Origin: Hirudinaria manillensis
Lineage: Eukaryota; Annelida; Clitellata; Hirudinida; Hirudinidae
Reading direction: 5' to 3'
Length of the DNA stretch: 64,000 nucleotides
NCBI GenBank assembly: GCA_034509925.1
Contig: CM067530.1
Coordinates: forward strand, 5,100,501-5,164,500
Shown here: piece by piece, positions 46,642 to 63,813 of the stretch
How the letters are laid out: every line of letters starts with the position of its first letter
Position numbering within the stretch: the first letter of the stretch is position 1
Program-made: the position numbers and the translations under genes
The notes under the pieces: model-generated
What the model was told of the DNA's origin: nothing
The model's input: the letters and a program-made list of their open reading frames with translations, nothing else
The model's database searches: none

Positions 46642-49600
46642 ATGAGCTTCAGTAGGGAAAGGTCCCAGTCAGTGTCCACATCATCGAGTTCCTCCTCGGT
46701 CTATAGCGAAAACCTTTTCACTGGAACTTTGAGACGTTTGAAGAATACTCTGATCACGGTTGATTCGAGCACCGTTCGAGGAAGATTCGTGCAAAGGTTA
46801 AGATTGGTCGGCATCCAACTCATTCCTGTCGTGGTTTTCCTGGTTGTTTGCATTCAACAGTTAGTCACGTACAGCGAGATCTTGAAGATATACACAAAGA
46901 CCTACGGGAAAGAAAATGTAAGATTTTCAATCGTTAATTTTATTTTTAAACTTGATAAGGAAAGATCCATTACGGCTTACGAATTCTATAAAGCAAAAGC
47001 TTACAACAAAAAGTAGGTTTCCTGACGACTTTAAAACCTACATTTCAGTTAACGATAAAATTCCTATTTGCAGTGGGTTAGAAAAAGATTTTTGTATTTT
47101 TAAAAATGATACTCGTCTCCAAGCTGCCAAACTCGAAACCGATGTTTCTTTCAACATGATGGCTGGACAGCCTTTGATATCATCAAACGACAAATTTCAA
47201 TCTACTCCGTTCAGTGATTACTTGAACGATGCCCGTCTAACTATTAATGGAACGGACTGCGATGAAACTCGCCAACGAATGCTGATCAAGTACTCGAAGC
47301 TCGTTCAAACGTCTTTAATTTACATCCCGATCGTTGAGAACAAAGATTTGTCAGTCTTGACTATCAAACTTATTTCTGCTCTCCAAGACATTCTCAATGC
47401 TTACAGAACTTTGTCGAGAATATGTTACCTGGGTCTTGAATTTTTCATTTACGATCAATTTCAATCAGACCTCTCCCGTCTTTATTTCACAGGTAATCTA
47501 TCCCTTGTCATCTCGCTCACTGACCAGGCTCTTGAAATGGATTATAGTCTGAGCCAAACCTACCAAAGATTAATGAAGAATTACAACTTTTCTTTGGAAT
47601 ACGCAAGCAGCCTGACAGAATACTTTTCATGCTCGGAACTTCACGACAGTTGCAACTTCACGAAATGGTTCAGCGACTGCATCGGCTTTTTGAAATTGTA
47701 CGAAAGTCTTAAAAGTGAAGCAATAAAAGGAGAAAAAATAAAAGGGATCGACCTCGATTTGCAAGCAGTTTTGGCAGGTTGTAAAAGGCAACATATTTGA
47801 TGAATGATTTCAGTCTAATAAATTCTTTCGTTCAGGGATTATATTGCACACGCTAGGAATTCTTTTCATGATCCCTACCCTGATCTTCATTTATCTGAAT
47901 TCGGAAATGACTGTCAGTAATTTAAAGCAATTCTCGATTATGTTCCACAACCAAGCTAAAGAATTAATTGCCGAGAAAGACAAAACTGAAATTTTGCTAT
48001 CTGAGATGCTCCCAAAATCAGTTGCTCGTCAGTTGAGATTGGGCCATTTTGTGGAGGCGGAAACATACGAAGTATTTTAGTTAATAATATTGTCAATTAA
48101 ATGTATTCATTGAACCTGAATGTCTTTTCAGAATGCAACAATTTACTTCAGCGATATTGTGGATTTTAATGAAATCACACTACTTTCAGAACCAATTCAA
48201 ATTGTGGGCATCTTAAATTCAATCTACAACCTTCTTGACTCCCGCATTGAATGTTATGATGTTTACAAGGTAAAACGACTAAAGTTACTAAAGAATACTT
48301 TTCAAGAAGTGACGGATCTAAAATAATTTGGCGTGATGGAGTCGAGGTAAATGCGCGTCAATATTCAATTTAAAGATTAGATCTGACTCCTTTCCTGCGG
48401 CGTGTGCAGATCCTTTAGTATCTTCAAGAAAAATCATTAAATTCCCCCAATTTTTAAATCTTTATTAGAGCTTTAAGGACATAGAAATAACAGAGATTCA
48501 TGAGCTAAAAAGAACGTTATATTTTTAGACCATACCCAATAAAAAATTATATTAAGTTTTAAAAAAATGCAAATAATTTTATCAACTAAGTAGAAAAGCT
48601 GACGGTCCTGGCTATAAAATCTCAAAATGCTGCCAAAAAGCTATTTTATAAAAGAGGTTGGAGTCGAAAAAATAGCATCGAATGATATTGGATCGGGATC
48701 GGCGATCAAAGATGGGGACATTGAAGCAATCCGAAGCGCTGGAAACATACAAATTTAGACATTTCTGGGGCATTTGCATTACAAATTTCGCTAAAGTGCG
48801 AGTAAAGAGGTTAAAAATGTAAAGACACGTGTTTTGAATGAATCGTAATATTTAAAATATCGAATTAATTTGGATCTAAACGTAAGCAAGCTATTAAATT
48901 GTATCTGTACCATATTTTCTTTTGATTGGACAAATGATGTTTGCAAATTCACTGAAAAAATCATAAGAAATCAATTTTCATTTTCATCACATTTGACTCA
49001 AGGTAGAAACAATAGGAAGCGTATACATGGTGGTAAGCGGAGTTCCAGTAAGAAATGGTCAGCAACACGTGGTCGAAGTGGCAGACATGTCCCTCGACAT
49101 CTTGGAGGCCATTGATCGTCAGACATTTCCAGACGTTCAACGCAAGGTGGAACTTAGAATAGGCATCCATACAGGTTGTTGAGTTGAAGAATCTTAGAGG
49201 AGCTGAGAAGTGTTGAGAATGATGATTGGTTCAATCTCGCAGGGCCTTGTGTGGCAGGAGTGGTGGGTAACAAGATGACGAGGTACTGCTTGTTTGGAGA
49301 CACTGTCAACACCGCTTCCAGGATGCAATCAACTGGAGCAGGTATTGAAATACATCGCGTAACGGACTGAATTTACCAGTTAGTTCTGATCAAAGACATC
49401 ATATGCTTTGCATTTAATTGAAGAAGTTTTAATTTTTGTGATGGAAATTTGTTAAAATAGATATATATCACGTCTTCTTGAGTAAAATTAATCAATCGAT
49501 TAATTTATTATTTTGAAAAACAATTGATTATATTTCAGCTTCAAGGATCCATCTGTCAGAGTCTACATTTTCAAGCTTAGACACCAGTAATTACATCATG

Positions 49601-49748
49601 GTCAAGAGAGGCGTGGTCGAAGTTAAGGTGAACCTTCGTGTTTGAGAAAATTAATAAATAAATAATTTGTTGCGTTTATTTTCCTTTCCAGGGCAAAGGA
49701 GCAATGATGACTTACTGGTTGGACGGAAAAGCCTCAAATGAGAATTAA
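46642..49748 (+). CDS. NIT-domain membrane guanylate cyclase, paralogue 1
   Basis: Exons 46642-47012, 47074-47777, 47836-48071, 48132-48269, 49003-49174, 49243-49341, 49539-49627, 49692-49748; 621 residues. Order: short Ser-rich cytoplasmic start, membrane segment at about 55-76 ([16 protein letters not shown]), extracellular all-helical NIT-type sensor (about 77-358), second membrane segment (359-380), dimerisation helix ending [12 protein letters not shown], then the cyclase domain from about 438. There is no kinase-homology domain. Cyclase landmarks: first metal Asp kept in FSDIVDF (Asp445); guanine-contact Glu485 in VETIG and Cys556 in RYCLFG kept; Asn563 and Arg567 in NTASRM kept; but the second metal Asp is Ser489 (GSVY instead of GDAY). 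NIT-GCs have been linked to nitric oxide or nitrite responses in marine invertebrates; the ligand here is inferred. Ser489 predicts weak or no homodimer activity. Confidence 0.85.
48270..49002 (+). other. Enlarged intron of cyclase 1
   Basis: 733 bp, against 65 and 58 bp for the same intron in the other two cyclases. No exon or recognisable mobile element is seen inside. The acceptor (CAAG at 48999-49002) is the same as in the paralogues. Confidence 0.6.
49003..49341 (+). repeat. Homogenised cyclase tract, copy 1
   Basis: Exon 49003-49174, its 68-bp intron and exon 49243-49341. Nearly identical in DNA to 52116-52464 and 62948-63286, including most of the intron, while the exons on each side are strongly diverged between paralogues. 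Confidence 0.9.
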
Positions 49749-50362
49749 AATAAATCAGTCGAGATCAGAGCTAAAGTCAGTCCTAAAGTTGAAAACGTTA
49801 TCATTTAAATTCATGACTTGAAATTCATAAACAAATATTACAAATAAATTTTGACTCATTTTTGAAAGAAATTCAGAGCTGAACCAGATTAATCACACAT
49901 TATAATCATACAGTGTAAAGCATGCAGTGTAATCACACCGTTTAGTATTGTCATTCTAAATACATCATAGCTTTTACTTAGATTTCAGGAATAATTTAAG
50001 TTCGATGAGTCAAGAAGCATTCAAATGATTTCCGTTTCCATTGAATTGCAACGAGTGTCAACGAGTTCATTGTCATGAAGTTCGTAATTAGATTCAGTCG
50101 AGTACTCGATTATACCAGCATATAATTGCAAAGAAAAAGTAGCGTTCAATACCATTACAGGAGTTAACGAGAATACGAACCGAGTGGATACCATGTGTTT
50201 CGCAAACGCAGACAAGTCCTTCAGACTAACCGTCTCTCACAACGACAATTTTTAAAAGTTAATTTGATGCTCTAACAGTATAAATACATTGAATTACGGT
50301 CGAATAAAATTCAGATAATTAAATATTTCTTTGAAATCGGAGTGTTGGAAAGTTTCGCTACG
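49749..50362. other. Intergenic between cyclases 1 and 2
   Basis: About 0.6 kb; no gene. Contains the TATA-like sequence described at 50279 and presumably the promoter of the second cyclase. Confidence 0.5.
50279..50286 (+). promoter_or_regulatory. TATA-like box of cyclase 2
   Basis: TATAAATA about 77 bp upstream of the ATG at 50363. Placement fits a start site near 50310 with a leader of about 50 nt. Sequence match only. Confidence 0.4.
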
Positions 50363-52862
50363 ATGCTCGCTTTAAAGCACAATTTGAAGATTCTCTTTAT
50401 TGACATCAATTCATCCTCGATTTGGGGAAGGTCTATCCAAAGATTTCGTTTAGTCGGGTTGCCATCGATTCCCGTGGTGATCGTCATTGCAGTTTGCTCG
50501 TGGCAACTGGTTAGTTATCGTAAAACTATGGCTGGCTACAGAGGAATGTATGACAGGGCGAAATTCAGGTACACCGTTGCACAACTCATAGCTAAACTTG
50601 ACGAAGAGAGGTCAGCCTTTGCAAGAGACATATTATTGAAGCCCAATGACAGTTCAAGGTAGGGATGTTTAAAATTTTGAATATTTAATGAGTTAATATA
50701 TCCCAAGGAGTAAACCCCTGAGAAGGTCGTTAACATTATTTATGCTTAACTTAATTGAAAGTTTTAATTTTTTCTTAAACTTAATCGAAATGAACAGGGA
50801 ACAGATGCAATCATGTGTCCGAAATAACAACACTGAGATTTCCGAAGCTATCGAAAATACAGACGACATTTTGGCCACTTTTCTTAAAATTCCCTACATT
50901 CCCTCAGAGGATGACATTCAAAGTCGAAAGAATGATGAAATCAAAAATGTTTACAACTCAACAGCATTCGCAGTACTCCTTGAAAAACTCAGGTATATGA
51001 TGATGAGCACTGGTCCCAGCAACTGCGAAACGAAATTTCAACTTCTTTTGGTTTCCTATACGCAGGCAATTAAGTTGTCAATACTCATTTCTCCGAATTT
51101 TTACGAGTCAGAACTTTCCAAACTGACATTTATGCACGTGTTTGCTCTTCAACATGCTCTCGAAACTCACGAACACATGTCCAGCCTCTGCCATTTAGCC
51201 TACGAGTATTTCACTTACGGCAAGTTCATAAAACTGGAAACGGAAATCGATTTTGTGATGAACGTCAGCACTGCCTTCGAAGCTCGTGACTTGATGCTGT
51301 CTTTAGACGATTCAATATCGGTCCTGTATCGTAGGCTGTTGCTGAATCAATCGTTTCCGGTCAAAGAATTCACGGAGATTACTTACGACATCGTGGCGGG
51401 CAAACAGGTCAACTTGTCATTTTCACAGTGGTACGACATGTGCAGAAGTGTAGCAAAATTCAACGAATATTTTGAGGACGAATTGTCAAAGAAGACCAGA
51501 ATGGAAGGATTCGATGTTGAGTGGAGAAACTGTGTTGCCGGTAAGAAATCGTCCCTTGAATGAGATTCCTTGACGTATTGAAAATCATAAGATCGGCATT
51601 TCAGGAATAATTTTTTATTCTCTGGTGATCTTCGTCAACATTCCGGCGTTTGCTCTCATTTTCATGAACTCGGAAACGACTGTCAGAAATCTCAGGCAAT
51701 TTTCATCACTTTTTCAAAGCCAAGTCGACAAATTGGTCGAGGAAAAGGTTAACTCTGAAATGTTGTTGTGTGCTATGCTTCCAAAGACGGTGGCACGCCA
51801 GTTGACCGTGGGAAAGACCATCGAAGCTGAAACATTCGAGGTGAAAATTATACTAATGTGTTATAGCTCCAAAGTGCTAATAAATTTCACAAATTTATAA
51901 CCATTTCAGAGCTCGACGGTTTATTTCAGCGATATTGTGGATTTCAATGAAATCATTCTCAACAATTTGGAAGCAATACAAATCGTGGATCTACTTAATA
52001 ATTTGTATACTCTTCTCGATTCGAAAATTGAATGCTTTGACGTATATAAGGTTACATTTTTGCGCTTCCTAAATAAGTCATGTCCTAAATAACAATTTAT
52101 ATACATTTTTTCAAGGTAGAAACAATAGGAAGCGTGTACATGGTGGTAAGTGGAGTTCCAGAAAGAAATGGTCAGCAACACGTGATTGAAGTGGCAGACA
52201 TGTCCCTCGACATCTTGGAGGCCATTGATCGTCAGACATTTCCAGACGTTCAACGCAAGGTGGAACTTAGAATAGGCATCCATACAGGTTGTTGAGTTGA
52301 AGAATCTTAGAGGAGCTGAGAGGAGATTAGAGGAGTTTAGAACGGTGATTGGTTCAATATCGCAGGGCCTTGTGTGGCAGGAGTGGTGGGTAACAAGATG
52401 ACGAGGTACTGCTTGTTTGGAGACACTGTCAACACCGCTTCCAGGATGCAATCCACTGGAGCAGGTGTAACATGCACAATAATATATCATATTATCCTCA
52501 ATAGATTCACAAAAATATGTTGCCTTTTTCGCAGCTTCCCGAATCCATCTGTCGGAATCAACCTTCCAAGAACTGAATGCGGCCAACAATTACATTTTAC
52601 AGAAGAGAGGAACTACCGAAGTCAAGGCAAATATTTATATTTGTAATATAATTTATATTAAGATCATCTCAAGGAATCTTGTGACGATGGAAAAACAATT
52701 TTACTTTTGCAATTTTCAAAACCGTTTTGCTTCGGTTTTGACAGAATGAGTAGAGTTCCAATAATGAAAAGCAAATATAGAAAAATTCAAAAATATTATT
52801 TCTACGTTCAGGGAAAAGGCCTTATGGTCACGTATTGGCTCTCTGGAAAAAGACAACAATGA
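50363..52862 (+). CDS. NIT-domain membrane guanylate cyclase, paralogue 2
   Basis: Exons 50363-50658, 50798-51540, 51605-51840, 51910-52050, 52116-52287, 52366-52464, 52535-52626, 52812-52862; 609 residues with the same phases as paralogue 1. The ATG at 50363 is the first in frame after the TATA-like box. Topology is again membrane segment ([15 protein letters not shown]), NIT sensor, membrane segment, dimerisation helix ([11 protein letters not shown]), cyclase. The first metal Asp is kept (FSDIVDF, Asp433), the second is Ser478 (GSVY). Glu474 and the RYCLFG Cys remain. The N-terminal and NIT parts align with paralogue 1 only loosely, while two cyclase exons are nearly identical in DNA. The exon ending at 52626 uses a GC donor (GCAAAT). 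A 222-codon antisense frame on the minus strand is a shadow. Confidence 0.85.
52116..52464 (+). repeat. Homogenised cyclase tract, copy 2
   Basis: Matches 49003-49341 and 62948-63286 across both exons and most of the intron; the intron here is 10 bp longer owing to a short duplication (GAGGAGATTAGAGGAGTTTA). Confidence 0.9.
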
Positions 52863-53421
52863 TATGGATAACGGTGAAGAATTGGGTCGAATGGATTGCA
52901 TACTGAATGGGCCCTTGGAAAATATTTAGTGGCGCTTTTATTTATTTTTTAAGTTTGATGTGCGCTTAAATTATTAGTGCATCAATGTTTCTAAATAATT
53001 GCAAGCAACGACACTATAATAACGTTTCTCCCTTTTTCCTTTTGAAGAAATTAATTTTCCAAAATTTTTAATTCTTTTTAAAAGTTGCGAAATAAGGTTT
53101 TCTATTGTTGCCACGCATTCATCCTCACCAAATGGAAAAAAATTAGCATTGTGTCATTTTTGAACTGTCCCAACTTATTTACTATAATAAATAAATATAT
53201 TATAATAAATAAATATATCAACGCACGAGGTCGTACTGAAAAAGACCTTCGCTTTATATCGTTTGTTTAAATTCTAATGAGCCTCAACCATAGACCCAAA
53301 AACCATTCCTTTCGTGCACTTCAATTCAGTACATCTTTCACCTATGTATTAATAATTTATTACAAATACATACAAATTCTGTCCTATAAAAAAAAAAACG
53401 TTTATTTCATTGAAAGTCTGG
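52863..53421. other. Convergent spacer between cyclase 2 and EFL1
   Basis: No gene. The EFL1 poly(A) signal lies at 53401-53406 on the minus strand. A TAAATA run around 53185-53215 is simple AT repeat. Confidence 0.5.
53401..53406 (-). terminator. Poly(A) signal of EFL1
   Basis: TTTATT on the plus strand reads AATAAA on the minus strand, starting 16 nt beyond the EFL1 stop codon (53422-53424). Confidence 0.5.
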
Positions 53422-56400
53422 TTATTTGTTCTTTTTCAAGGTTCTCTGCTTTTCACCGAACTCGACAAGCTTCTCAGTAGTTCTTAGGCCCTTCCTCCTC
53501 CTGATATCGTTCATATGTTTCCTTGCGACATTCTCAGAGTCTGCTTTTTCACCAAAATGAGTATATTCCTCGTCAGTCGTTGGTACCCAAAAAGGGTCAA
53601 TGTCAATAACCTGCGACCAATCAATAATTAACGTACCTCCAAATAAATAAATAAATAAATAATTCAAAATGCAAACCTCCCAGTGGCTAAACTTCAACTG
53701 TGGCATAGCTAGACCACTGGTTTTTTTACGAAACTCTTCTGCAAATCCAAAGCTTTCGATGACAGGTAAAACAGCAGAAACATGGAATGTTGTTGATCCC
53801 TCTTTCATTTCTTCACTTAACACTCTTCCATGCCTCTTACCAAGTACTCCGTACATCTTTCCTTTTAAGAAATAAATACTAACTCATCCAAATTTGTCGA
53901 ATAAAATTATTTGAAGAAAATGAGATTACAACCCAAAACTTCAGCTGTGGTCTGAATGACGCAGGTGTACATGGCCCACATGAGCCTCTGTGGTTGATTC
54001 TGGAATGCTCGTTTGCAGCACTCCTTCATGCACGATATTAACGATCCTTTGAATTGCGTAGGAGCTCTACGATCACAGATTGTCTCTTGGATTTCAACAT
54101 CATCTTCTTCTTCTCCATCTCGTTCATCTAATTCTCCATTTTGGACACTTTCATTTTCCAGTTGTTCTAGACTCTGCTTCTTACCTATTTCAATCCAGTT
54201 TTCAACAATAAAACAAACACCAAACATAGGCTCTTCACACAAGGGGCCTGCATTTGTTGCTACTTCAAACCCATTAATTATGGACCTGTCCATGCTTCTC
54301 AATCTTTAAAATAAATAACTTATGATAAAAAATTGTAAATATCTTTAAATTAAAACAAACATTTAATGACCTTTCTATAAGAGAATTGTCAGAACACTTG
54401 GCCAAATCCCAGAAGGAAGGTCTATCATATTCAGGAACTCTGTTGATGAGAATGTTTGAACAAACTCTTCTAGGATCGACAGACCACAAATTGTCCACGA
54501 AATCTCCCTCGATGTCCATATCCTCTTCGAAAAGCTCGCTCAACTTATTTTTCAAAATATTCAATGCAGTCAAAGTTTTGTTATCGATTGCTTCTGTTAA
54601 CTTTCCTGAGCTAATCTTTCTGGTGCAAAGTTTCAAGAGCTGAGAATTGTCGGCAAGAACTTTGACGATCCTTTCCGAGAGAGGCAAGGCTCTCACGACG
54701 AGTTGCCAAGAATCGGAAAGCAAAGTGGCAGACTCGGACTCCTCCCGGTTATTCTTCAATTTCACGGATGATAACTGATCGGCAATGTTCTCGTTTACTC
54801 TGTCGGTAGTCGGAGGAAGTACGATCGTCTCTCTAAATGGAACCGTGGGCGACGATACAGTGATGTCTATCAAAGCAAACCTAGAAATAAAAATGTTTTT
54901 CACTTTCATGTGAATAACAATTTACTATGTTATTGTATCATGATAAAACCTCTGTCTGAGATCATCAAGACATTTCTCTAAATGGACCTCTCCTGATGTC
55001 ACCAAAATATGTTCCCCTGTCTCCTTAACAAACACTTCCACACATGGATCTGACTGATTCAGAAGCTTCAGACCGTGGACCAGCTTGTCAAGATCACCTA
55101 AAAATAGAATTTATTTACACAATCCAAGCCAATCCAATATGTCTTTAATAGTTTAGTACTTGTGAATTTTGGTTCCACTGCAACTCTGACAATTGGTGAA
55201 ACTTCTTGGAAAAGATCAGTGAATGGGGGACAGAATAAATTGTCTGACAATGATGCAGACTTGAAAACCAACTCTTCTAAACCACCAATGCCTTGAGAAA
55301 TTAAAAAAAAAAAGCTTTGGTAATAAATCATGATAAACACTAATGAAGGCAATGATAATTTGTAGGCAACAAATAATAAATAATGAGGTAGGAAAGATAA
55401 ATGGCTTGTGTCGTACCAAAAATATTTCCTGCGGGGACCTCGTCAAGACAATCCAGATCCCTTCCCATCAATAGGTACAAATCCTTCACTTGAATCTTCA
55501 CCACATTCAAGCTCTTCAATTTTTCATCATCCTTTGATGATAATTTTTAATTATAAAATAGTTATGGATTTATGGTGAATTATTTAAAATACCTATACAC
55601 ATATATAAATATATTCTAGATACACAGAAAATTATATTATGTATCCTTCAAGGGATATACATATATATTAAAACAGATAATGGAAAACCTTCAGATCCAC
55701 GTTCAAGAGGTTATTGGGATCGTGCCTCGGACCAAGTACGTACAACCACTGTCCCTTCCTGATGCTTCCGCTAAATATTCTGGCAAATGCAATGAAAGTC
55801 GTGCTTTTTTCGTTTACAGTTTTGGTCTCAGTTTGGTTCTGTTCAGAATCTTAGTTGGACAAAAGTTAATGATGAGCAAAGAATCATTTTGCTAGAAGTT
55901 AATAAAAGCTCTTACCAAAGGGAACCACGGTGCCAGACGAACCCAAACCGTCGGTCTTGCCTTCATGTCTTCTCTTGAGAATTGCTTCCCTTTTGGCAGA
56001 TCTTTCTTCAGCCGTCAAAGGCCTTCAAAAAGTACATAAAGATCATATTTACCGAAGATATGTATATATCGAGTGCCAAACGTACTTTGGTTGATTCTTT
56101 GGCAAGAATTTTGTTTCAAATGGAAACATTTTTGAGATGAAGATGACTGTAGGGGAGCTGTGTGAAGCACTGCAGTTTGAGATATCTGTTTTTTTGTTAA
56201 AAAATCAATTCATTCATTATTTTAAGTGAGGATGTAAGATTCAATATGTTTTCTTTGAATAAACCTTCTTTGAGTGACATTGTTTCAATTGGAACAGAAT
56301 CAATGGATGCATTTCCCTTCAAGAATGTCAACACTCTTTCCTCTGGAATGCTCAGTGGGTTTGGAAGAAGCTGGCAGACCATTTCTTAATAATAATAATA

Positions 56401-58471
56401 ATAATAATAACAACAATAAATAACAAACTCATTTGAATTGTTTACATATTCATAAAATCTCACCAAGCACAGAACTTGAAAGTGGTAGCCATTGACTGAA
56501 AATGGAGTGCAAAGTTGTTTTTGGATCATTATGCTTTACAACAACTTTCAGGCCTAAAGTTTCAACAATTTTCTTGACCAAAGATTCATCTCTATAAAAT
56601 GCAGGAGTTAATTTTAGATGAATTTTAAAGTAAAATTGAAGTCAACATATTTATATTTAAATCATCCTCACCTCTTATTACAAACACAATCATAAACTTT
56701 CCATATATTGTCAAGAATCAGTTGAACAAACAATGTCTTTTTGCCTTTGCTCTGAATAGACATAAATTAGTGATGCATTCCAAGCCTGAGAAATGTATGA
56801 CTAAATGCAATGCAATTTAAAAATACCTTTGCTCCCTTTTTTACTGATTTGGATTTTGGATCCAAATAAAAATCTCCCCATAAAGTCTTGTTCAGAACTT
56901 CAAAGCTTACACCCAATTTTTCAGCATATAGAGCAGCAAAGGTGGAAATCCTGAAATAGGTTGTTGAATTAAATTAAGTTAAAATAAAATATCTTTAATT
57001 GATGTAATACCTGAATCCCCAGCCATCTGTGGCACTGCTAAATACCACGTTTCCCTGATCAGGTGAGAAATAGAGTGTGGAATCGTCGAGATCTTCAATT
57101 CCCGTGTCCCATTCGTTCAAGTCAAACTGAATTTATCATAAAAGTATTATCAACAACACAAACACACTGAATAAACAATCGAAAAGGACAGCTCAAATGG
57201 AAATGCATCCCATTATTTGAATTGTTTAGATTAAGAAATGAAGCAAGTGAGCAAACACAGATAGTTCAAATAACAATTAACTTGGTGGTTTATTACCTGG
57301 TTTCTTCGTTCTTCGTGATTTTCTTTCTGAGTCTCCTGGAATAAATTCAATTTTATGAGAAAGAGTTTCATAATAAAATCATAAAATTTAACAACTATAA
57401 AAAAATGAATTCAAACCTCCTGAGATGACTTTGCAAGTACATCACTTGTAAACAACTCTCCTCTAAGGGCATTGATCTAAAGTGATTGAGTCCAAGGATT
57501 AATGAAATTATGAAATGAACCATTTTCTTAAATCAATAGCAACCTGCTCAAACAGTTGTGTTAATTTGATTTCTGCCTCCTCTGGGGACATCTTCAGTTC
57601 GAGGATGAGGCGATCTAATTTATTCAGCACTAGAACAGGTTTGATGTTCTGAATCCATGCTTGTCTTAGCACAGCTTGAGTCTGGTATGAAGGCATTTAT
57701 GGCATTATTAAATGCATAATAAGGAATATTTATCTTTGCTAAATTTGTTAAGACTATAAACTAACTTGTGGGCAAATGCCTTCTACGACGTCAACAAGAA
57801 TGATTGCACCGTCACAAAGACGGACCACAGTAGACACTTCACTGTAGAAATCAATGTGCCCTGGAGAATCTATTAAGTTGACAAGATATTCCTCCTGTCC
57901 CCCTTTTAAGATAAAATCATTTTAATGACATGTAAATGTAACATGTAAAATGTATATTGTAAACATAAACTAATCATACTTGAAACATAATGTAGAGAAA
58001 TAGCACTGGACTTCATGGTGATTCCTTTCAATTGCTCATCCTCTCTACAATCCAAATATCTCAACTGCAAACAAAATTAAGCCAATTAAAAACAAACTGC
58101 AGTTTTTATTCAACACTTATCTAGTCTCTCAAAAAGTTTTGCTAATAAATTCAAATGCTGATCCAAACCTTTCCTGCCAATTTTGGTGATATGATGCCGT
58201 TGCTGGAAATCAGATTGTCCGCTAATGTTGTTTTGCCTTTAATTGTAATAAACTTATGAATAGAAGTCGAGTTACGAATTATTGGTAAGTATAATATTGG
58301 TTGGTACATGTTATATCATTATTTGGAATTTCAATCTGACTTTATTTTTAATATTAGATGCAATTATGTAATTCACATACCATGATCTACATGTGCCAGA
58401 ATGCAAACGTTCCGTATGTGAGAGGTCTTTTTTTGAAGACGGCATATCGTTTCAACATTTACTCGATTCAT
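53422..58471 (-). CDS. EFL1: Elongation factor-like GTPase 1 (ribosome maturation)
   Basis: Twenty-two exons (5'->3'): 58471-58381, 58236-58169, 58064-57980, 57902-57766, 57681-57544, 57476-57417, 57335-57297, 57126-57011, 56950-56827, 56751-56672, 56591-56464, 56384-56265, 56185-56086, 56022-55916, 55849-55689, 55531-55417, 55291-55160, 55097-54950, 54880-54371, 54303-53933, 53861-53677, 53610-53422; 3204 nt, 1067 residues (human about 1120). G1 AHVDHGKTT (26-34), switch GITMK, G3 DSPGH, G4 NKLD and G5 SATDG are intact, followed by EF-2-like domains II-V ([46 protein letters not shown]) and the C-terminal [10 protein letters not shown] / KQRTLKKNK tail typical of EFL1. EFL1 works in the cytoplasm with SBDS to release eIF6/TIF6 from pre-60S subunits. 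EFL1 rather than EF-2 is supported by the long insertions and the tail. Confidence 0.95.
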
Positions 58472-58747
58472 TTTGAGAATAAAGCGTATATAAAATCGTA
58501 ATTTAATAACCAATAAACTCTCAAAAGTCACTCAAATGACCGATTATTATTTAAGCAGTTAGCAAATGAAAACAACGTGCACAGATGTAAACAATAACGT
58601 AATGTGTAAATGAAAACTTAAATTATTATCTTGCTTTGCGAAGAAAAGCAATAATTTTAAAATGGTCAATAAAACTAATAAACTTTTAACTAATAAATTT
58701 AAAAATGAATGCAATTAAATCACATACAATGCATTTATGAAAATGTT

Positions 58748-59044
58748 TTAGGTTTCAACGGAGGCATTTTCCATATTTTCCTGGCATATTCTCAGGGAAA
58801 TGCCAAGTTCAGCAATTACAATGATGATGCTCAACGGTTGTTCGCTCAGCACATAGTTAAGACGAAAGTTGTAGTTCTTTGATCCCTCGATTCTAAAGAT
58901 TTTTTCAATAATCATTACTGTTGTTTTTATGCGAAATCATTGGAGGCCAGGTGCGAAACTATCGCTATTTTGGTTGTTGAACGTTGCAACGGTGGGTAGT
59001 CCTTTATTTAGCACAACGTTCTGCATTCTGATTCTTTTTGCCAT
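58748..59044 (-). CDS. Tiny unrecognised protein (68 residues)
   Basis: ATG at 59044; exons 59044-58983 and 58892-58748 join in phase 2 for 207 nt ending in TAA. The peptide starts MAKRIRMQNVVLNKGLPTVA and has a hydrophobic stretch (LSIIIVIAELGISL) before a polar end. I do not recognise it. It sits 277 bp upstream of EFL1 on the same strand, and its ATG is 23 bp from the divergent ATG at 59068. The alternative plus-strand frame over the second exon lacks a start. Support is the precise splice phase and open frame only, so it may be spurious. Confidence 0.35.
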
Positions 59045-59067
59045 GCCTTGCGGTAAATAGGAAATCA

Positions 59068-60789
59068 ATGGAGCACGTGAAAAGTTGTCTGACTCTAAAG
59101 TCTCTGCTGGAAATGAGTCCTTATCTTGGAGAAGTGGATTATTTGAGACTCGCTGCAAAACATTTGTTTTTGATTTACGTAAAAAACCATCCAAAGGTAA
59201 AAAATTTGTTGTTTGGAGAAGAGCCGGGTTCTGACAAAGTCGAATTAAACAAAATTATACTCGGATTTCCAACAACAAAAGAATTAGAAAACACGAACTT
59301 TGATTTCGGTCACTTTGCCGTTTTGTTCGTCTGCAAGGCAATTTGTGGACTGAGAGGAGAGTTCGGATTCCACGAATTGTTGGATAGAGATCTTATTGAT
59401 TCAGAATTGCAAGGAATATATAACAGTCGTGCCTGGATAGATGTAGGTTGGTTTTTCGAATATTCAAATTTAAAGATCACAGTTATGAGATTATGATAAA
59501 TAATTCTTCGAGGTCTTGCCTTCTACGTTTCCACGTTTAGAGAACTTTTAAGAGATAGGTCCACTGGTGAGAGTTTCAAAGATTTTTTAGTCGACAGGTT
59601 GTACATTTTATAGCTTTATTTGGAATTTAATTCTGAATTCATCATTTGATGTTTTATAGAGAAAAGTGGGGTAAGAAACTTTCAAATTTCTATCAATCAG
59701 AGCTTGCGGTTCTCCGGGATTTTCCGATATTCACTTCTTCCTCTGATGCCATCAAAAGAGATTTAAATCTCCTTCTGATGAAGGTTCATCTTCTCAACCC
59801 TAATCTTGTCAAGATCACTTTCGATCTAATCCACAAAAGTGAGGAAACCCTAATTGTCATAACGTCATTAAATTAACATGTCATCCAATAAAGTGGCCAA
59901 TTACAATTTAAAAAATCGCTCATGAATTTTTAGTGGTGCCAGACCTTGACCTGGAATTCTTGTCATTTCCATATTTGGGCGACCACTTAGACTGGACTTT
60001 GATAAAAAGTGAGGTGGAGGATGCCATTATGAAGCCATCGATTCCAAGCAACGTCTCCAAGTTTTCCTTGTTTGACATCGAAGAGTTCTATGGTGTTCAA
60101 GTTTTTGAATTCATCACAACAGAAGCCAAAGAACTCGGGTTATGGACTGGTAAATATCCAAACAATCACAGAATCTCCACAATTACTGATAGATGCAACA
60201 TGTCTTAATGTTGGAAGCACGACGAAAAACTTAATTTACATTGCTTTAATTTAATTCCATCATTTAATAATTAAATTAAAAACAATTCCTAAGCAAAAGA
60301 AACCCACAAAATACAATTTCTCCTCGAGATTATGATAAATCCGCGAAAATAATTACACGAACACAAATTCAGAAATAGTTCCTTAGCCCAAATTTCAAAC
60401 GTTTCTATCAAAAGCGATGCAAAAAATTGTCTTATTTGTCGTAACCAAGAAATTGCGCTCGTGTTGATTTAGGTGGCTTGGATCCATTAGTTTATAATTA
60501 CTTATAATTTGTATATTAGGTTGTTTTAGACCTATGGACTCTCAAACTTTCAAAAAGGAAGGTGGCTTGACTCAATTTGGTTGAGTCTTTCAACAATTTC
60601 CAATGCCTTGATATATGTTGATAATGCAAACGAGGAAATGGCTGAGAAAATAATTAATGTCAAATGACCTGCTCGAGTAGCATTCAAATCGGCAATACTT
60701 GCGTATGTTTTTCAGATTTCAAGAAGCCTTCACCAGATGCAAAATTTGCGGGGACGTCCTTTTGTGACAGAGTGGAGATCTCTGGTTAA
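59068..60789 (+). CDS. Unrecognised soluble protein (about 310 residues)
   Basis: Exons 59068-59446, 59513-59597, 59660-59838, 59934-60149 and, less surely, 60716-60789 ending in TAA; 933 nt. No signal peptide; one mildly hydrophobic stretch (FGHFAVLFVCKAICGL). The sequence is rich in helices (YLRLAAKHLFLIYVKNH, DLLMKV-like, FRELLRDRSTGESFKDFL) with paired acidic and aromatic residues (VPDLDLEFLSFPYLGD). I recognise no domain and no catalytic motif. If the ORF upstream of 59068 (from 58931, MRNHWRPG...) were a first exon, the protein would gain a hydrophobic leader, but the GTAAAT donor there conflicts with the open frame that continues through it. The final exon could be replaced by another frame at 60716-60952. 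Confidence 0.55.
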
Positions 60790-61255
60790 AGTTTGTCTGG
60801 TGAATGCCAAGAAACTAAGTCATAGAGAAATGGATGCGACTAAAAAGTCCAAACATAAAATCGTTATCATGATTTCCAAGATTCTTCGGTCTCTCACTTT
60901 CTATGTTAAGCATTTATGTGGTTCTAGTGAGAAGCATCGGTCTAAAAGTTAGCTGAAAAATTTCCATGAGTGATGCCATCGGCTCAACAGCTATTCTCAA
61001 TAATTATCACCTTAAGTAAAATATAAATTTTAAACAAAATCTTGTTTAAATAAATAGAAATAAAACGAGCAGTTAAAAACATTTCAAATTAAAAAGACTT
61101 AGAAGAAAAATGCCATTAATTCCACATCCAAGAGTATTTCGAAAAGTCGCAGCTGTGAGAATGTTTTTTCAAGAGCTCTTGAGAGGTGTTTTAAGTGGCA
61201 CCTTTTTCAAAGTTCATATAAAGATGAGGTCTTGACAAATTAGTTTTAGTCAAAC
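60790..61255. other. Intergenic upstream of cyclase 3
   Basis: An open frame continues over 60737-60952 in another phase and could be an alternative last exon of the preceding gene. Otherwise no gene is seen. Confidence 0.4.
61217..61223 (+). promoter_or_regulatory. TATA-like box of cyclase 3
   Basis: TATAAAG about 33 bp upstream of the ATG at 61256. If used, the leader would be only a few nucleotides long, so this may be coincidental. Confidence 0.3.
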
Positions 61256-63813
61256 ATGCCTGCTCATGAATCTCCACGTTTCAAACTCTGGTATAGATTC
61301 AAACTGCTTGGTATTCCTCTGATTCCTATGGCCATTTTCATGCTGGTGTGCGTCAACCAGTTAATCTCTTATTCAAATACTTTTATGGGTTATGCTGGAA
61401 TTTTTGATAAAGCAGAATTTAGACACGTTATTGGGAACTTTGTGTTTTCTCTTGGCGATGAACGACAAACAATTGCTTACAGCTACATCACGAAGGAGTT
61501 GGTAATTTTAATTTGTAATTAAAGCGATGAATTGATTTAAATATTTCACTGACAGATGGTCAAATGAATCGTCAAATGCAAGTTTGTGTCTGTCTCCAAA
61601 CACTAGCAAGCTAAACGAGGCTTTCAAGAACACAAATGACACAATGTCACGCTTGATACCTTTCCAATGGAAAACGAAGAGTGCGGGAAAGAAAACTTAC
61701 GATTTTTTTACTGTTTCCGGTCTCCTGAGCTTGGAGTCAGAGATATTTGGGATGAGATCCAAAATGCTCTTACAAAATGATTCAAATTGCTCTTCAAGGT
61801 ACCTGGAAATGACTCGATTCTATTCTGTGCTGATAAAGGAAAGCATCGAGCATTTGCCTAGTTTCCATGAAGCAGAACTTTCTAAAATTACCTTCATGCA
61901 CATTCATGCCCTTCAAGATATTCTCGAAGCTTATGAAGATTTTTCGTTGTTGTGTTGCCTGGACGGCATGCAACTACGATATGATGATGCGAAAATATTC
62001 TTCATAAGTTTAATAAGCACGGGAGCAGCAGCCATTGAACGATCTTTTGAGGGAGACAACAGTTTGTTAGATGTGTACAGGAGTCTAACCGAGATGTTTC
62101 CTGATATACGCTACTTCCTCGACGAAGCGTGGCAAGCGGAGCTCTTCGAAGAAATGCTGGCAAATCCTTCGACATTCCGTAACAAGTGTCTCCATGTTGT
62201 AATGATGATGAAGCGGATGGCCATAGAAGTTTATCAGGGAGAAAAAGAAGAAGGATTCGAGAAGGAATGGAACAAATGCTTGGCAGGTGAATAATTATTC
62301 TTTGTCGAGTACAACGAATTATTTGATTGGTTATTGAACCAGGTGTGGTTGTTTATTTGATGGCCTTTGTTGTGCTCGTGCCAAACATGGTAGCCATTTA
62401 CCGAAATTCCGAGATGACCATCAATACCCTTCTACAATTTATGAAATCGCTCCAATCTCAAGTGGATAAACTTACCGAAGAGAAAGATAGGAGCGATGTG
62501 TTGCTCTCTGAAATGTTCCCCAGATCAATCGTTTCTCAATTGAAGAATACGAGCGAAGTTGAAGCGGAATTTTTTGAGGTTAAAAACCTGAAAAATAAAT
62601 TTCAAACTCAAAATTTACTTTCGACTCACACTGTTCAATGCATTATAATTAATTATTTGTAATTAATGAATTAATTATTTAAATAATTAATTATTCAAAT
62701 AATTAATTATAAATATTTAATTATTAATTATCAATAAATTTGCATTTTTAGTCAAGCACGGTCTGTTTCACAGACGTCGTTGACTTCAATGACATAATTT
62801 TCTCCCACCAATCAATACAAATTGTTGATTTCCTGAACTGCGTTTATAATCTCATCGATTCCAAAATAAATCTGCACGATGTGTATAAAGTTAGTAATTA
62901 AGTGAGTGTATTGTTTCCACCGACTTACAACTTTATAAATCCTAAAGGTAGAAACAATAGGAAGCGTATACATGGTGGTAAGTGGAGTTCCAGTAAGAAA
63001 TGGTCAGCAACACGTGGTCGAAGTGGCAGACATGTCCCTCGACATCTTGGAGGCCATTGATCGTCAAACATTTCCAGACGTTCAACGCAAGGTGGAACTT
63101 AGAATAGGCATCCATACAGGTTGTTGAGTTGAAGAACCTGAGACGAACTGAGAGGAGTTTAGAACGATGATTGGTTCAATCTCGCAGGGCCTTGTGTTGC
63201 AGGAGTGGTGGGTAACAAGATGACGAGGTATTGCTTGTTTGGAGACACTGTCAACACTGCTTCCAGGATGCAATCAACTGGAGCAGGTACGATAGGCGCG
63301 TTACAACAACACGAGTCAATATATTCAAGAATGTCCTTTTTTTAAAGATTATTTTAATGATTTGATTTATTATTCAAATGTTTGTCGCAGCCTCTAAAAT
63401 TCAAGTATCTTCAACAACTCATTCCCTGCTCCTCATCAGCGGTGGTTATGTTATGGAAAAGAGAGGAAATGTACAAGTTAAAGTAAAAAATACGATTTAA
63501 CTGTTATGATAGCACCTCTTCATAAGGCTGCAATGTCAATAGTCTTGCATAAATGGTCTGCATATCTGCTCGCATATGGCGCCATTTGGTCTTAAATAGA
63601 CGGGTTTCAATCACAAACTTAATTTAGATACTCCCATGAAGTTATCATGTTTCTTGTTAATAAATAAATTGATAATTTTGTTTATTTTATATATAAAAAT
63701 AATAATGTTTATTAATAAACTAATAATTTACTGATAAATCTTTATTATTGTTTATAATGAATATCCAGGGAAAAGGCATTATGGAAACATTTTGGTTGCT
63801 GAGGAAATGCTAG
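61256..63813 (+). CDS. NIT-domain membrane guanylate cyclase, paralogue 3
   Basis: Exons 61256-61497, 61556-62286, 62343-62578, 62752-62889, 62948-63119, 63188-63286, 63391-63482, 63769-63813; 584 residues, with exon phases and several exon lengths (236, 172, 99, 92) identical to paralogue 2. The N-terminus is the shortest of the three. Membrane segment [20 protein letters not shown] sensor, second membrane segment ([19 protein letters not shown]), helix with [12 protein letters not shown], cyclase. The first metal motif has drifted (CFTDVVDF, Asp411 kept); the second Asp is Ser455 (GSVY). Guanine-contact Glu451 and the RYCLFG Cys remain. The gene is separated from paralogues 1 and 2 by EFL1 and two unrelated genes, so an insertion or rearrangement followed array formation. 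Confidence 0.85.
62948..63286 (+). repeat. Homogenised cyclase tract, copy 3
   Basis: Third copy of the two-exon tract, differing from copy 1 by only a few bases in the first exon, although it lies more than 13 kb away and the neighbouring exons are diverged. Confidence 0.9.

Follow-up and report, generated by a model that had tools for sequence, protein, structure and literature searches.

The window analysed here, a stretch of 64,000 nucleotides from the leech Hirudinaria manillensis (contig CM067530.1, positions 5,100,501 to 5,164,500), carries three plus-strand genes, A, B and C. They are predicted to encode membrane guanylate cyclases (GCs) with an ectodomain between two hydrophobic segments, and in all three the second catalytic metal-binding Asp is replaced by Ser. 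The window lies on scaffold C5; the genome comprises 148.4 Mb in 23 contigs, with 14,755,599 bases in scaffold C1 and 8,303,845 in C13. The published assembly of this species was made from PacBio HiFi reads and consists of 13 scaffolds of 14.76-8.30 Mb, nine small ones and a mitochondrion (PMC10671345), and a second source also gives 13 chromosomes for H. manillensis (PMC10087013).

Genes A, B and C and their active sites

The genes were modelled exon by exon by reading splice sites in the genomic DNA. Each has eight coding exons (Table 1); all acceptors are AG, all donors are GT save one GC after exon 7 of gene B, and the start codons of the predicted proteins are provisional. The Pfam model Guanylate_cyc covers the whole cyclase domain once in each protein, with 216, 207.9 and 202.9 bits for A, B and C, respectively (cut-off 21.9). 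In front of this domain lies the ectodomain with its two hydrophobic segments, which were judged by eye from the models. Amino-acid identity among the three proteins up to the exon with the first metal Asp (Asp1) is 30-34%.

Table 1. Positions of genes A, B and C and their parts in the window
Feature	Position	Strand	Remarks
Gene A	46642..49748	+	8 coding exons, 621 aa, stop included; spliced model, GT-AG
Gene A, exons 1-4	46642-47012, 47074-47777, 47836-48071, 48132-48269	+	
Gene A, exons 5-8	49003-49174, 49243-49341, 49539-49627, 49692-49748	+	
Gene A, exon with first metal Asp	48132..48269	+	D445, FSDIVDF
Gene A, converted cassette	49003..49341	+	Exon with E485 and S489, intron 49175-49242, exon with Cys, Asn and Arg
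Gene B	50363..52862	+	8 coding exons, 609 aa; spliced model
Gene B, exons 1-4	50363-50658, 50798-51540, 51605-51840, 51910-52050	+	
Gene B, exons 5-8	52116-52287, 52366-52464, 52535-52626, 52812-52862	+	GC-AG donor at the end of 52535-52626
Gene B, exon with first metal Asp	51910..52050	+	D433, FSDIVDF
Gene B, converted cassette	52116..52464	+	Exon with E474 and S478, intron 52288-52365, exon with Cys, Asn and Arg
Gene C	61256..63813	+	8 coding exons, 584 aa; spliced model
Gene C, exons 1-4	61256-61497, 61556-62286, 62343-62578, 62752-62889	+	
Gene C, exons 5-8	62948-63119, 63188-63286, 63391-63482, 63769-63813	+	
Gene C, exon with first metal Asp	62752..62889	+	D411, FTDVVDF
Gene C, converted cassette	62948..63286	+	Exon with E451 and S455, intron 63120-63187, exon with Cys, Asn and Arg

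A preliminary description of this window had placed Asp1 at residues 445, 433 and 411 and a Ser at the second metal position (Asp2) at residues 489, 478 and 455 of A, B and C, and each of these numbers was reproduced in the spliced models. The GTP-recognition Glu (KVET) and Cys (RYCLFG) and the transition-state Asn and Arg (TVNTASR), which it had described as kept, are indeed present in all three proteins. Compared with a complete class III cyclase, A, B and C have the Asn and Arg and only the first of the two metal Asp residues. All three genes encode this Ser by AGC, two bases from GAC. In a whole-genome DNA search, matches to the full cassette were confined to A, B and C, and no version of it with GAC was found in the assembly. 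Since the assembly was built from HiFi reads, a sequencing error shared by the three Ser codons is unlikely.

Gene conversion of the catalytic cassette

The exon with Ser, the exon with Cys, Asn and Arg, and the intron between them form a cassette of 339-349 bp, in which the intron of B carries a 10-base insert. Pairwise DNA identity among the genes is 97-99% in the Ser exon, 88-91% in the internal intron and 96-99% in the second exon, and outside the cassette it is 53-69% in the Asp1 exon and 45-61% in the exon that follows. The introns flanking the cassette have unequal lengths and give poor alignments. Where two genes encode the same amino acid, the codon is identical in 81/84, 81/86 and 78/84 cases inside the cassette for the three gene pairs, compared with 78/197, 63/156 and 68/176 outside it. 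Synonymous divergence (dS) inside is 0.067, 0.084 and 0.121, and outside it is saturated or nearly so (2.8 or more). Given the near-identity of the cassettes, set against synonymous sites elsewhere that are saturated or nearly so, we reject the idea that Asp2 was lost separately in each of the three genes.

The intron inside the cassette served as a neutral yardstick. It has diverged by 9-12%, whereas the exons have diverged by only 1-4%, with nonsynonymous divergence (dN) of 0-0.01 between genes, indicating that the catalytic exons are constrained. Thus, the catalytic exons were copied between A, B and C and then kept by purifying selection, Ser included. Because the exons carrying Ser were homogenised by gene conversion, the three serines represent one event; the residue reported in the preliminary description is real, but the three proteins are not independent cases of it. 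An odd residue shared by paralogues can therefore be one copied event rather than parallel loss. Four further matches in the genome DNA search (80-83%) span essentially the second cassette exon only.

Guanylate-cyclase domains in the genome

A Pfam-based exon search of the genome gave at least 86 matches, which were grouped into 31 stretches beyond the window genes; these and A, B and C were spliced with a GeneWise-like program written for the analysis. A second genome search with the domain of one of them, L038, as query added no cyclase place. Six adenylyl cyclase-like pieces were left out of the count; their residue at the Asp2 place is Asp in L009 and L014, Ser in L016 and L033 and Pro in L034, and L015 is unaligned there. 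The census comprises 28 GC domains, namely A, B, C and 25 others.

Asp1 is present in 28/28 domains, and so is Glu when L010-L013 are read with a GC donor. The first automatic splicing had suggested a loss of Glu in these four, which is ruled out, since a GC-AG donor (TACAAG/GCGA) restores VET. These paralogous receptor cyclases and L021 apparently share the place of the GC donor (TACAAG/GC), at the exon before VETIGDAY; gene B likewise has a GC donor at window position 52626, after its seventh exon. Asp2 is found in 24/28 domains, the exceptions being Ser in A, B and C and Cys in L038; with Asp kept in so many domains, the Ser of A-C is more than chance variation. Cys is kept in 27/28 (Thr in L024), Asn in 27/28 (Thr in L025) and Arg in 24/28 (Lys in L025 and L037, Met in L027, Thr in L032). 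No domain of the 28 is missing a metal Asp together with Asn or Arg, and all four cyclases without Asp2 have Asp1, Glu, Cys, Asn and Arg intact. An upstream kinase-homology signature was recognised in 22/28 domains (18 by a first pattern, two by a second and two by reading). The remaining six, namely A, B, C, L035, L037 and L038, include all four Asp2 losses. As A, B and C are one converted group, these losses represent two lineages, not four independent losses. The preliminary description had looked to paralogues that keep the second Asp; 24 of the 28 domains do so, among them L035 and L037, which also lack a kinase-homology domain.

Among the kinase-homology cyclases, several other odd residues were seen. 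In L025, TVTMAAK replaces TVNTASR, so that Asn is Thr and Arg is Lys, as reported for NeoR of chytrids. L032 (Arg to Thr), L027 (Arg to Met) and L024 (Cys to Thr), listed above, belong to the same class, and L039 has Lys in place of Gly just before the second Asp.

L038 reads VETINCVYMV, with Cys (TGC) at the Asp2 place and normal splice sites; TGC is one base from AGC. Val directly after the lost Asp occurs only in L038 and A-C among the 28 domains. In a tree built without the cassette, L038 joins A-C with support 88/63 and lies far from them, at a path of 1.8-2.7 changes per column, and in the whole-domain tree its placement relative to A-C is not settled. It is plausible from these comparisons that the loss of Asp2 was ancestral to L038 and A-C. 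L037 has GDAY and keeps both Asp residues and Asn; its FGETVNLASKM has Lys for Arg and Glu for the Asp of FGD. In L035, all tabulated catalytic residues are intact. Complementary losses are thus found within one architecture: A, B, C and L038 are without Asp2, and L037 is without Arg.

A, B and C had been called NIT-guanylate cyclases. Animal NIT-GCs (Platynereis NIT-GC1/2 and placozoan members) resemble A-C in having an ectodomain flanked by two transmembrane segments and then a class III cyclase (PMC7400543), and NIT-GCs have been reported in annelids (PMC7400543; PMC10584369). A, B and C show this architecture, an ectodomain between two putative transmembrane segments and no kinase-homology domain. 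However, they have no match to Pfam NIT (PF08376) at E<=1, so the label was not borne out, and they may also differ from NIT-GCs in the lost second metal Asp. Below the curated cut-off of Pfam NIT, L038 has E 7.4e-5 and a rough join of L035 has E 0.0015; a rough join of the L037 ectodomain has no match, and a genome search with the model gave zero matches anywhere, controls included. When the ectodomain profiles of A-C were compared with L038, the result (E 0.039, 1% probability) was no proof of common descent. The ectodomain of B, modelled from one exon without the first transmembrane segment, is predicted with low confidence to be all-helical (pLDDT 58) and has no PDB match at E<=0.001, and an NCBIfam search with the B ectodomain gave no match. 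When PDB profiles were searched at E<=5 with the ectodomains plus helix (A2), the best stretches all fell in the signalling-helix end. A short motif, found as LDEERS in B, LDKERS in A, GDERQ in C and LQMERGS in L035, resembles the NIT Arg motif. A-C are NIT-GC-like by architecture and annelid precedent, and we do not file them as NIT-GC members since Pfam NIT does not match them.

A proposed divided active site and its alternatives

In class III cyclases, each active site receives both metal Asp residues from one protomer and Glu, Cys, Asn and Arg from the other. Because the metal pair of a site comes from a single protomer, a homodimer of A, B or C would have two sites, each without Asp2, and such homodimers should be dead or nearly so. 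We infer dimerisation, partner choice and activity of A-C as follows. The catalytic domain of A-C would be cut down to one half of a composite active site, giving base recognition (Glu, Cys) and the transition-state residues (Asn, Arg) and no complete metal site. Together with a subunit that keeps both Asp residues, it would form a heterodimer with one complete and one dead site. The likeliest partner would be L037, with its reciprocal loss, or L035, the two genes that share this architecture and have both Asp residues. We put the probability that A-C are half-site donors of this kind, similar to the C2 domain of transmembrane adenylyl cyclases (tmACs) or the beta subunit of soluble guanylate cyclase (sGC), and need an Asp-Asp partner, most likely L037 or L035, at roughly 0.58. 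Purifying selection on the exons with the remaining catalytic residues favours a working heterodimer.

The preliminary description had compared the partial loss with sGC. This comparison holds in that Asp2 is gone and the rest is kept; however, the best match at the one residue is tmAC C2 and not an sGC subunit. The C2 domain of AC8 reads KIKTIGSTYMAVSG, with Ser at the Asp2 position, and that of AC9 reads GATY there. In tmACs, C2 is the non-metal half of a pseudo-heterodimer and C1 supplies the metals. Unlike A-C, which keep Asp1 and the Glu/Cys pair, tmAC C2 has lost Asp1 too (FASI in AC8 and AC9); it binds adenine as its base, and it is part of one polypeptide with its partner. Human sGC beta1 is without Asp1 rather than Asp2. 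In sGC, according to PMC3591389, alpha supplies the metal Asp residues D486 and D530, the latter equivalent to D440 of adenylyl cyclase, and R552 and K593 come from beta; the key residues are split between the subunits, homodimers are inactive, and the second site is described there as being without key residues. The beta subunit, as the non-metal half beside a metal-giving alpha (PMC3591389), would resemble A-C in role, whereas it differs from them in being soluble and having a haem domain.

A membrane-bound heterodimer is known in chytrid fungi. NeoR has Thr and Lys for Asn and Arg and gives the metal Asp residues, RGC1 gives Glu and Cys, and one site works (PMC12264004). The D379A substitution of RGC1, at a metal Asp of the non-catalytic site, raised activity ninefold, and NeoR was still inactive after Asn and Arg were put into it (PMC12264004), which means that single residues are not the whole story. 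In this comparison L037 would correspond to NeoR, as would L025 with respect to its residues. The chytrid system differs from A-C in its rhodopsin sensor, and RGC1 and RGC2, unlike A-C, are reported to be intact at every residue known to be important for cyclization (PMC8815786). By sequence, A-C and L037 show the same kind of residue division as sGC, tmAC C1/C2 and NeoR/RGC. Taken together, the interpretation in the preliminary description is partly supported.

Several points weigh against half-site donation by A-C to L037 or L035. The candidate partner genes are on scaffold C1 and A-C on C5, the cyclase domains of L035 and L037 show no specific grouping with A-C in trees, and profile comparison of the A-C ectodomains with those of L037 and L035, made from rough joins, gave no significant similarity. 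Losses of Asn or Arg are also found in the kinase-homology receptors L025, L027 and L032, so that the reciprocal loss in L037 may be a coincidence. About 0.6 double losses are expected by frequency (4/28 and 4/28), and their absence is therefore not significant. In principle, Ser could permit weak activity with Mn or with one metal.

It is also conceivable, though unlikely, that A-C are pseudo-cyclases, producing no cGMP in whatever combination and serving as sensors, scaffolds or dominant inhibitors that bind an active cyclase or GTP. The loss of one catalytic residue in A, B and C and again in L038 is consistent with this, and one inactive heterodimer has been reported in lower organisms (PMC3591389). 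However, Asn and Arg are unnecessary for a scaffold, whereas Asp1, Glu, Cys, Asn and Arg are intact in all four genes without Asp2, and purifying selection on the cassette is strong. Less probable still are active homodimers with an altered metal site, in which the metal would be bound by Asp1 and acidic residues close to it; such enzymes might use a different metal or be slow. Additional acidic residues do follow Asp1 directly (FSDIVDFNE in A and B); however, L017 has IVDF together with an intact GDAY, so that an additional Asp is no tell-tale of compensation, and both Asp residues are described as essential for metal coordination (PMC3591389). That the genes are decaying or misassembled, with Ser as a mistake or as the beginning of pseudogenisation, is very improbable: near-identical exons in three neighbours can come from assembly collapse as well as from copying, but the models of A-C are open over their full length with proper splice sites, the flanks and introns around each cassette differ, the cassettes carry 6-11% synonymous differences, and the published assembly is HiFi (PMC10671345).

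Half-site donation by A-C may have a tentative extension, which we consider doubtful at present. In a set of combinatorial membrane cyclases, differing sensors would be joined to one catalytic half by repeated conversion of the cassette and would share an L037-like metal donor. Such enzymes would be coincidence receptors, membrane counterparts of sGC alpha/beta. As for sGC itself, exon-wise genome searches, which may miss genes and had prokaryotic controls, gave no candidate for the haem-nitric oxide-binding domain (PF07700) even at E<=10 and a best E of 0.29 for the nitric oxide synthase oxygenase domain (PF02898). None of the 28 GC domains is sGC-like by eye, and HNOBA has two short genome matches only, one of which is the signalling helix of L037. 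Nitric oxide-cGMP signalling has been reported in the leech Hirudo (PMC3710617).

If A-C are half-site donors, some animal NIT-like membrane guanylate cyclases would be obligate heteromers with their halves split among genes, and single-gene activity assays of the A-C type would yield false negatives. The converted cassette may be regarded as a natural experiment in which one catalytic half is combined with different sensors. The half-site principle is well known for sGC, tmACs and fungal RGCs; to our knowledge, no half-site case has been described in an animal membrane cyclase of the A-C type. No natural loss of Asp2 in an animal membrane cyclase was found among the matches listed in a search of open-access titles and abstract starts, and cases in print are possible. 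The accessible part of PMC1435932 contains nothing on metal residues.

Three other features were noted. L033 and L034 (C1:12.86-12.87 Mb) are a pair of adenylyl cyclase-like domains, both odd in the automatic splicing, with QGSRYF (Ser at Asp2) and GPSY. Between genes B and C, minus-strand frames at window positions 53422-54909 resemble by eye the C-terminal part of an EF-G-like GTPase; thus, A-B and C are not one unbroken tandem array. Upstream of the receptor cyclase gene of L017, positions 3-1660 of that stretch contain retroelement-like polyprotein frames with the look of RNase H and integrase, as judged by eye.

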